DNA of 19,056 bases. It comes from Candidatus Altimarinota bacterium. GTDB lineage: Bacteria; Patescibacteriota; Gracilibacteria; GCA-2401425; JAJOLG01. The notes under the pieces were generated by a model. It was not told the DNA's origin. It was given only the letters and a program-made list of their open reading frames with translations, and searched no databases. The stretch lies in NCBI GenBank assembly GCA_021129445.1, contig JAJOLG010000059.1, positions 1 through 19,056 on the forward strand. Reading direction: 5' to 3'. The translations under genes were made by a program, and so were the position numbers. Below, one piece after another: positions 12,830 through 16,052 of this stretch (the stretch's first letter is position 1; each line of letters opens with the position of its first letter).

Positions 12830-12904
12830 TGGCAGTCTCGCTCAGAATCGAACTGAGGTTGCCGGTGTTGGAGACCAGCGTCATAACCGTTAGACCACGA
12901 GACC
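12830..12904 (-). tRNA. trnW: tRNA-Trp (anticodon CCA), CCA end encoded
   Basis: The minus strand folds as a full cloverleaf: acceptor GGTCTCG/CGAGACT with one G-U pair at the top, D stem GTC/GAC, anticodon stem CTGGT/ACCGG, loop CTCCAAC, T arm CTCAG-TTCGATT-CTGAG, discriminator G, encoded CCA. Anticodon CCA with G73 gives tryptophan identity. C34 restricts it to UGG, which agrees with UGA being glycine here. Position 38 is C, whereas many bacterial tRNA-Trp have A36-A37-A38. Terminator downstream and promoter-like boxes upstream indicate its own unit. Confidence 0.95.
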
Positions 12905-12954: not shown

Positions 12955-14475
12955 TTATTTAATTTTTTTCTCAATTTCTTTAAAAAATTTTTCTTTTAAA
13001 TAATCTCTTAAAAATTCTTTTTCCTTAAAACCCTGATAAATTGGTATTAAACTCATATTGTAAGATTTTTCAATAAGGTGATTTAACTTCTTAAATTTAT
13101 CAAAATTTTTTTCTGTGATATTTCAAGGGTAAAGTAAAAAAATTTTATCTGCCTTGCTTTGAAAATCTTTTTGATTTTGAAATCAAATTTTTCTGTATTT
13201 GTGAAGGTCGGATTTGAAATATTTTGGATTTGGATAATCCAATTTTAAATCAAAATCTTTAAAAGACGAAAATTTTACATCAAAAAATATTTTTTTTGAA
13301 ATTGTTTTGTTTGTTTTTTTATCAAAAAAGTTTATTTCAAGCGAAATATCAGGTGTTAATTTTTTTGAATTATTTTTAAATTTTTTTCATAAAATTTTTG
13401 AAAAATCTTCTTCTAAAAATCGTGCTTCATTTTCTTTTATTTTATCTCAAAAAATGTATTTAAAACTTAAATTATCATCAATTTTGTACTCCAAAAATCA
13501 AAATTCCTTTTCGTTTTTATCTTTTAAAAATTTTGAAAAATCGTCTTCAAAGCGAATAATTTTATTTTTATGTGAAATTTTTTCTAAATTTTTTTTAATT
13601 TCTTCATCAAAATTTTTTAATTCATCATAATTTCATTGAAATTTTTTTAGAAATTCTTGAAAATTTTTTTCATCTATTAAAAATTTTTCATCTTTTTTTA
13701 AAAGCCTTTCAATATCTTTTTCGTCTAAAAAAAACCTTTTTTTCAAATTTAAAAAATCTTTTTTTAAATCTTTTCAAAATTTTTCCAAAAAAATTTCTTC
13801 CAAAATTTCTTTGAATTTTAAATATGCAAAAAATTCGTATTTTTCCGAGAAAAAATTAACATAATTTGTATTTTTAACTGGATCAATAAAAAATTTTTTG
13901 TTAAAAATTTTTTCTCAAAAATAAGAATCAATTTTTTTTGTGATGTAATCCAAAAAGCTTTTTTCCAGAATTTGAAATGGATAAATAAAAAATTTTCATT
14001 TCAAAAATTTTTTCAGAGGTGTGAATTTGAAGTCGTTTAGTCAAATTTTGTAATTTTTTGGTGAAATCCGGTAAGTTGTCAAAATATCAAAATTTTTGTT
14101 CAGTAGGGTGAAAAATGATGCTTCTGTGAAGAAAAAATTTGAACGAATTTCTTTTGTGAAATTTTTTGCAAATTTTTCTAAATTTTTTTCGTTTGTTCTA
14201 AAAATTTTTTTTCATCAGAAAAAATTATCCAAATAAAGATATTCAATTTCAAAATTTTTTTCTAAATAAAAATTTTTTTTATGGAAAATTTTTTTATGAA
14301 AATCGTCTATTTGATGCGAAAAAAATCAAGAATGACTGGTTAAAAATTTTTCTTCATCAAATTTTTTCTTTTCTTCATTGAAAAATCTATCAAAATTTTT
14401 TTGTAAATAAAAAATTTTTCAATTGTTTGTATTTGTGATTTTTACAGCCGCTAAAATATCTTTAAAATTTATCAT
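12955..14475 (-). CDS. PD-(D/E)XK nuclease resembling McrC / DUF2357 proteins
   Basis: The 506-residue product ends in a nuclease-like fold: P375-D376 in TPDISLEINFF, then D399-V400-K401 in FFDVKFSS, then D423 in SDLHKYRKIG and the strand IFLLYPGN. The order PD...DxK...DLxKxxxY...LLYPG is that of McrC-type and DUF2357 endonucleases, the cutting subunits of McrBC-like modification-dependent restriction. The N-terminal ~350 residues are extremely rich in Phe, Lys, Asp and Asn, and I recognise no domain there. No McrB-type AAA+ partner lies next to it. ATG 14475 is used because a TAA lies a few codons upstream in frame. It is the next gene upstream of tRNA-Trp on the same strand, and rlmD ends 74 bases behind it. 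Role in DNA defence is inferred from fold alone. Confidence 0.6.
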
Positions 14476-14549: not shown

Positions 14550-16052
14550 TTATTTTAATTTAAATTTTGCAACAAGCTCAATGTGACTTGTATGCGGAAA
14601 CATGTCCACGGCCTGCACTTTTTCCAAAACATATTTTTCCGCAAAAATCTGAGCATCTCTTGCAAAAGTCGATGGGTTGCAAGACACATAAATCAAGTTT
14701 TTTGCCTCAGAATTCATAATTGTTTCAATGGCTTTTTTGTGCATTCATGCTCTTGGTGGGTCAATTACAATCAAGTCCAGTTCTTGAAATTCCTCTAAAA
14801 GTTCAGGTAATTTTTCCTCAACTTTTCCACAAATAAATTCAGTATTTGTTAAATTATTCAATTTTGAATTTTCTTTTGCATCCTCAACGGCACTTTCGAT
14901 ATATTCGATTCAAACAACCTGCGCATCGGAATCTTTGGCTAAAATTTGCCCAATTGTTCAGGTTCAGCAGTATAAATCGATAAAAATTTTATCAGTTGTT
15001 TTTTCCGAATTTGCAAAAATTTCATCAGAAAATTTTTTTACTTGCGAATATAAAACTTCTGCTCATCCTGAATTTGTTTGAAAAAATGATTTTGCAGAAA
15101 TTTTAAAATTTAATCATAAAATATTTTCTTCAATAAATTCGTCTTCTCAAAAAATTTTATGCACTTCATATTTTGCCCAATCATCATTTAATCAAGGGTT
15201 ATTTGTGTAAAAAAAATTTTTTACATAATTTAATTTTCAATTATGCACTCAGTTTGAATTTCAATTTCAGTTTCAAAAATTTTGTAATTTTATTGCTAAA
15301 TTTTCTAAAAATGTATTAAATCTTTGATTTTTGTATTTATTTTGAAATAAATTTATAATCAAATTTATCATCAATTCTCATTTTAAATTTTCACGAATTA
15401 AAATATGTCTCCAAAGTCATTTATGAGAATATGGGTTAAAAACCTCTTTTGAAAATTTTAAACATTCAGTTTTTATCAGTTGAAATACTTGATTTGCATT
15501 TTCTGTAATCAAATCACAATTTGCAATATCGACAATTTCTTGAAATTTTCAAGGTTTATGAAATCAAGCAGTTTCTCAGGTGTCAAAAAATTTTTTATTT
15601 CAGTCTTCATCAGTCTCAACTCTCATTTCTTGATATCAAAACGAAAATTCAACTTTATTTCTGTATCAAAAAATTTCTGGGCTTCCTAAAATTGGTGAAA
15701 AATTTATCGTCTCTAAATCAAATTTTCAAATGTGTTTTAAGGATTCTTTAACTTGATTTTCTTTGTATTCAAGTTGTTTTTTGTAGTCTAAATTTTGCCA
15801 TTTGCATCATCAACATTTTCAGAAATGCTGACATTTTGCAGAAATCTCAATATTAGATTTTTCCAAAACTTCTTGAAGTTTTCAATTTCAATGTGATTTT
15901 TTCTTTTTTTGTAAAACAAATTTTACTTTTTGCCCAGGAATTCATCATTTTATGAAAATTACAAAATCATCAATTTTTGCAATTCATTCTCATCAGAATC
16001 ATAAATTTTCTATTTTTGCCTCGTAAACTCCTCATTTTTTTAGCTGTGTCAT
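14550..16052 (-). CDS. rlmD: RNA uracil-C5-methyltransferase, RlmD/RumA type with Fe-S site
   Basis: Methylates a uracil C5 in rRNA (23S U1939 for RlmD; paralogues act on U747 or tRNA U54). The 500-residue product has an N-terminal TRAM-like domain (YEAKIENLGFGGEGIAK), the Fe-S cysteines C74, C80, C83 (CxxxxxCGGC) and C179, the SAM-binding motif FIDLYCGTGTIGQ, DPPRAG at 431-436 and the catalytic C458 in VSCNPSTFARD. A middle insert of about 100 residues contains an Asn/Gly run. The start ATG 16052 gives MTQLKKGG immediately before the TRAM domain. The exact target base cannot be told from sequence, so the symbol is for the family. It is transcribed away from the gene at 16100. Confidence 0.88.

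Follow-up and report, generated by a model that had tools for sequence, protein, structure and literature searches.

The window, by which we mean the whole 19,056-nucleotide stretch analyzed (contig JAJOLG010000059.1 of a Candidatus Altimarinota bacterium), holds a gene for a McrC-family nuclease that is much shorter in its middle than the same protein in related bacteria. In our judgment there is an even chance that this gene encodes a McrC-family PD-(D/E)XK endonuclease that does without the McrB-docking finger and lives without McrB. Four observations are at the core of this account: the existence of the gene, the family it belongs to, the segment it lacks, and the failure to find an McrB in the assembly.

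Gene, reading frame, and genetic code

The reading frame at 12955-14475 of the minus strand is a real gene. It runs from an ATG at 14475 to a TAA stop at 12957-12955 and, translated with code 25, gives a protein of 506 residues (P0001, here called the window protein); with table 11, the minus strand of 12955-14475 yields no such frame. Only the reading of TGA as glycine keeps the frame open; of the 15 glycines, 14 are encoded by TGA, a habit shared by the neighboring genes. In 2000 first-order Markov simulations with the same AT-rich dinucleotide make-up, the longest open frame over all six frames was 275 codons, and since the nuclease profile also matches with an E-value of ~1e-37, a chance origin of the 506 codons can be set aside. 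GC content varies by codon position, as it does in the neighbor genes, and is 19% overall, versus 25-28% in six other measured genes. The protein contains 19% Lys and 15% Phe, with zero Trp and zero Cys; its net charge is +27 (versus +4 for its relative P0002), and its predicted pI is 9.4.

Reassignment of CGA/CGG was considered but finds no support, the few such codons being located at Arg-plausible sites (e.g., R177 of MiaA). The window's rlmD has 34 TGA glycines, unlike the rlmD copies of G001, the only other genome of the same order in the comparison, which have no in-frame TGA (L043 398-1894 and L042 6035-6853). It seems that the genetic code differs inside this order or that the order placement is off.

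Family membership and domain layout

A search of 99 relatives, followed by one of 353 class genomes, turned up two clear relatives of the window protein. P0002 (716 aa) comes from Candidatus Gracilibacteria BROCD037 (G033, L005:8426-10576) and uses the window protein's genetic code; P0004, from an uncultured bacterium (G139), has at least 914 aa and is cut at the contig end. All three have in common a TPD...FDxKFS...LHKY...YPGN core, with the relatives at 44%-53% identity. Scans of genome contigs gave no relatives besides these two, and scans of viral contigs gave none; tblastn of P0004 and P0006 against plasmids, and of P0002 against phages, found no match. PDDEXK_7 had no match over 379 genomes of the phylum, a search that missed the positive controls likewise. 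The relatives of the window protein are rare and scattered across the class.

Pfam, NCBIfam, and PADLOC models place the window protein in no family, and Pfam PF04411 itself has no match. The connection to described nucleases is made through other members of the class. P0004 has a sub-cut-off match to PDDEXK_7 (E = 0.004), P0005 and P0006 are clear PDDEXK_7 proteins (E ~1e-10), and in a profile-to-profile comparison the three-member family profile matches P0005/P0006 over the same core (E = 3e-5). Together with the homology to P0002 and P0004 (E ~1e-37), this bears out the McrC/DUF2357-type PD-(D/E)XK nuclease proposed in a preliminary description of the DNA; judged by sequence, the C-terminal part of the window protein is a McrC-family PD-(D/E)XK nuclease.

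The predicted nuclease domain (PDDEXK_7-like) comprises residues 212-503 (12967-13842, minus strand, as for all parts that follow) and matches the relatives' profile at E ~1e-37 (0 of 1000 shuffles), the E-value of 3e-5 being that of the A2-A4 profile comparison. The PD...DxK active site is formed by P375-D376 (13348-13353), invariant in the alignment of the window protein, P0002, and P0004, and by D399-V-K401 (13273-13281), of which D and K are invariant in the same alignment. The latter pair had been singled out earlier for checking in homologs, and the motifs quoted at that time (P375-D376, D399-V-K401, D423, and YPG at 449-451) are all present. LHKY is also invariant within the LHKYR motif at residues 424-428 (13192-13206), as is YPG (13123-13131), which recurs in P0005 and P0006. 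Within the domain, residues 236-326 (13498-13770) form a helical-looking stretch ~50 residues longer than that of P0002, with no significant match to P0002 and no clear relative.

Ahead of the nuclease, residues 115-184 (13924-14133) match a scaffold-type domain common to P0002 and P0004 (profile E = 6e-8, 0 of 1000 shuffles; z = 7.5 and 8.6). Shuffle scoring by parts aligns them with the relatives' N-terminal domain, FFxEGxxYHL...GN...YPSxGL...KID. Residues 1-114 (14134-14475) have no detectable relatives (residues 1-112 against P0002 1-192: z = 0.7, 230 of 1000 shuffles). The preliminary description had left some 350 N-terminal residues unrecognized; this holds for residues 1-114 but not for the scaffold match at 115-184, nor beyond the start of the nuclease near residue 212. 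Two MAFFT alignments (A1 and A2) had placed the window protein's N terminus on the relatives' finger, a placement that we rejected in favor of the part-wise scoring; because of this misplacement they were used for the nuclease core alone. Identity between the window protein and P0002 is 39% in the scaffold and 53% in the nuclease, versus 36% and 51% between P0002 and P0004.

Both AlphaFold models are of low confidence (mean pLDDT 40 for one), and Foldseek gave no match under E = 0.001. A second-look structure list, from the low-confidence model with pLDDT 40, is rich in PD-(D/E)XK nucleases, all at Z < 8; the McrC structure 6hz4_M matches this low-confidence model with Z = 5.5 and rmsd 5.1 over 137 aligned residues. 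Sequence searches of solved structures found nothing relevant.

A central segment absent from the window protein

P0002 and P0004 both have the layout scaffold, finger (~195 aa), nuclease. Between scaffold and nuclease lie 192 residues in P0002 and 199 in P0004; the window protein has only 21-27, depending on where the ends are placed. Scoring by parts delimits a short junction at residues 185-211 (13843-13923) in place of the relatives' finger of 192-199 residues. The central parts of P0002 and P0004 match one another (z = 8.3), which serves as a positive control. When the relatives' finger was sought in the whole window protein, it was undetected, 46 of 1000 shuffles scoring equally high. 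By these comparisons, the central segment of ~195 residues is absent from the window protein, which the preliminary description had overlooked.

The McrC of T. gammatolerans consists, from N to C terminus, of a scaffold (1-98), a finger (99-288), and a nuclease (299-458). Its finger is inserted through the McrB ring, where it places an Arg that stimulates GTP hydrolysis, and the dimer is built by the scaffold and nuclease domains (PMC7680126). We compared the central segment with a canonical finger profile made from 13 McrC proteins (E. coli and 12 plasmid-collection loci). It matches P0002 and P0004 in the central part (with 2 and 3 of 1000 shuffles, respectively), led by DxxxNRxLK and followed further on by the canonical nuclease match, and scores at noise level against the window protein. 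In P0005 and P0006, both of which have McrB neighbors, the canonical finger profile likewise fails to pick up the equivalent region. Given the shared domain order, the length (190 versus 192-199 residues), and the NRxLK motif, we infer that the absent segment is the McrB-docking finger. With scaffold and nuclease present and the finger absent, the window protein would keep the cutting and dimer-forming parts of McrC without the coupling to a motor. A finger relocated to residues 236-326 was also considered and rejected, the evidence for it being weak (z = 2.8 to P0004 and 1.2 to P0002).

The McrB partner: beside the relatives' genes, but not found in the window's genome

An AAA+ protein of 1416 aa (P0003) is encoded ~6 bp upstream of P0002; it has a Walker A motif, LLDEINL, and GTANIDETT, and matches PADLOC PDC-M26A (4e-34). 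P0005 and P0006 each have a McrB-like AAA+ gene directly upstream, the second split by a frameshift. McrB is thus directly upstream in all relatives' loci that include upstream sequence, as it is in nine out of nine annotated plasmid McrC loci with intact CDS, plus one end-cut locus. The NxD motif marks one branch of McrB (PMC11090510), and since the relatives' partners are NxD McrB-type AAA+ proteins, the nuclease family represents the McrC side of McrBC-like systems.

In the window, no McrB-type gene adjoins the nuclease gene. The gene upstream on the same strand is RlmD-like (14550-16052, minus strand), and a UvrD-like gene also lies upstream on this strand. Nor did we find a McrB anywhere in the draft genome (672,893 bases in 77 contigs, 94.8% complete): P0003 has no match in the assembly, a NxD-GTPase profile has none in the genome (the controls G033, G139, and G185 are all positive), and the AAA_5 matches, by gene reading, are MoxR, ClpC, RuvB, DnaX, and FtsH, none of them McrB. 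At this completeness a McrB could sit in the missing part. The orphan status suggested earlier for the nuclease therefore stands at both levels, and the loss of the finger fits well with the absence of McrB. No DNA methylases of the C5- or N6_Mtase families were found in this genome.

The relatives' loci offer some further observations. In G033, L005 1-18001 (C6:101000-119000) is a defense island of Candidatus Gracilibacteria with type I restriction genes alongside P0003 and the McrC P0002; the island also has a 444-aa AAA_2/Torsin-like AAA+ protein in the opposite orientation. In G139:C30, L028 1501-7982 carries two tandem McrBC-like pairs, one of a NxxD (NTADRS) McrB with a McrC and the other of a NxD McrB fragment with a PDDEXK_7 protein. 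The McrB-like gene of G185:C20 (L029 4902-7744) consists of two overlapping frames, from either a true frameshift or a sequencing error.

Proposed function and alternative explanations

Since the missing part is taken to be the finger that inserts into McrB and stimulates its GTPase, a protein that has lost it would no longer be driven or gated by McrB. The McrC dimer forms through the scaffold and nuclease domains, for which reason we propose that the window protein makes a homodimer and acts as a stand-alone DNA endonuclease. Each active site of the dimer would cut one strand, and the hold on DNA might come from the basic surface of the protein itself (pI 9.4) or from a new partner. Activity free of McrB is not a given, because E. 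coli McrC alone shows no stable DNA binding (PMC7680126) and LlaJI requires both subunits (PMC1459862); any cutting that the window protein does is probably motor-free. More specifically, we tentatively suggest, as a possible but not the expected outcome, that McrC has been domesticated: The lineage would have dropped finger and motor, leaving a scaffold-nuclease dimer as an endonuclease that needs no GTP and is maintained for a cellular role in defense, repair, or DNA processing, a mirror of PcdA on the McrB side. The case is a single example of a fingerless McrC, in a draft assembly and with no close ortholog.

The main rival is that the gene is a functionless McrBC remnant in decay, from which mcrB and the finger have gone while the rest is still unbroken. 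We regard this as unlikely, though to be taken seriously: Neither P0003 nor the NxD-GTPase profile finds a partner in the genome, the low GC (19% against 25%-28%) and the 19% Lys and 15% Phe are what relaxed, AT-driven drift should produce, and the family is rare and scattered in the class. Yet the frame of 506 codons is intact in sequence where TAA arises easily, the active-site residues are retained, and scaffold and nuclease have diverged no further than P0002 has from P0004, all of which favors a maintained protein over a decaying one. The protein might instead be a working subunit of McrBC type whose McrB is unassembled or too diverged, with residues 1-114 or 236-326 doing the docking. 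An assembly in 77 contigs at 94.8% completeness leaves room for this, as do the extra helical-looking stretch and the score of residues 232-330 of P0001 against the P0004 finger (z = 2.8, 8 of 1000). It is improbable, however, given that the P0003, AAA_5, and control-validated NxD-GTPase searches gave no GTPase, that the finger profile is unmatched across the whole protein, and that a RlmD-like gene occupies the place where the relatives' complete loci and the plasmid McrC loci (nine intact and one end-cut) keep McrB.

It is very unlikely that the consensus has simply dropped a piece of ~570 bases in frame. A draft metagenome assembly of AT-rich sequence with many short repeats is open to such an error; but the frame continues unbroken across the junction, none of the repeats reported is a long, exact, direct one of the kind that favors collapse, and the absence of McrB points independently to the same loss. 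Least credible of all is a DNA-processing nuclease that partners ComEC in DNA uptake, a functional link raised in the preliminary description on account of comEC lying nearby (~0.4 kb away). That gene is on the opposite strand and convergent, past a tRNA-Trp (12830-12904) that stands between the two; no comEC adjoins the relatives' nuclease genes in the loci examined; and neither the nuclease nor comEC occurs in the rlmD region of G001 or of G003, so the link finds no support.

Comparison with known systems

As far as the draft shows, a fingerless and apparently McrB-free McrC composed of scaffold and nuclease is a new McrC variant. In the McrBC studies that we consulted, McrC is active only in partnership with McrB, and our partial coverage of the literature yielded no publication that speaks of an orphan or solitary McrC. 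If our favored reading of a finger-free, McrB-independent nuclease is true, nuclease and motor are separable in evolution, and the gene illustrates the stripping-down of defense systems in very small genomes. The window protein is also a ready construct for asking whether a McrC dimer can cut DNA alone.

The C-terminal PD...DxK nuclease is common to the window protein, the McrC proteins of E. coli and T. gammatolerans, and LlaJI R2, and the scaffold-type domain precedes it as in T. gammatolerans McrC. Unlike McrC and DUF2357-PDDEXK_7 subunits, the window protein has no detected finger and no McrB, adjacent or in the assembly, and it carries the extra stretch at 236-326. P0002, which uses the same code and is 53% identical to the window protein over the nuclease core and 39% identical over the scaffold, differs in its own 192-residue central part, in the NxD GTPase 6 bp upstream, and in the type I restriction genes beside it. 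The relatives' partners carry the NxD motif (GTANIDETT and GTINLDETT) of the McrBC branch that includes the CoCoNuTs (PMC11090510); in contrast to the latter, there is no GTPase here, and the window has neither a coiled-coil GTPase fusion nor a HEPN gene.

PcdA of Staphylococcus belongs to the McrB family but has lost its McrC and turned into a protein of cell division (PMC10602043). Like the window protein it is a lone, structurally reduced half of a McrBC pair, but PcdA is the McrB side with a new role and the window protein the McrC side. EndoMS is absent from the structure rows for the low-confidence model, which excludes nothing, and the window protein has no Pfam or NCBIfam match. For T. 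gammatolerans McrC, EndoMS/NucS has proved the best template in structure (PMC7680126), and the window protein may resemble this motor-free, dimeric PD-(D/E)XK endonuclease in architecture.
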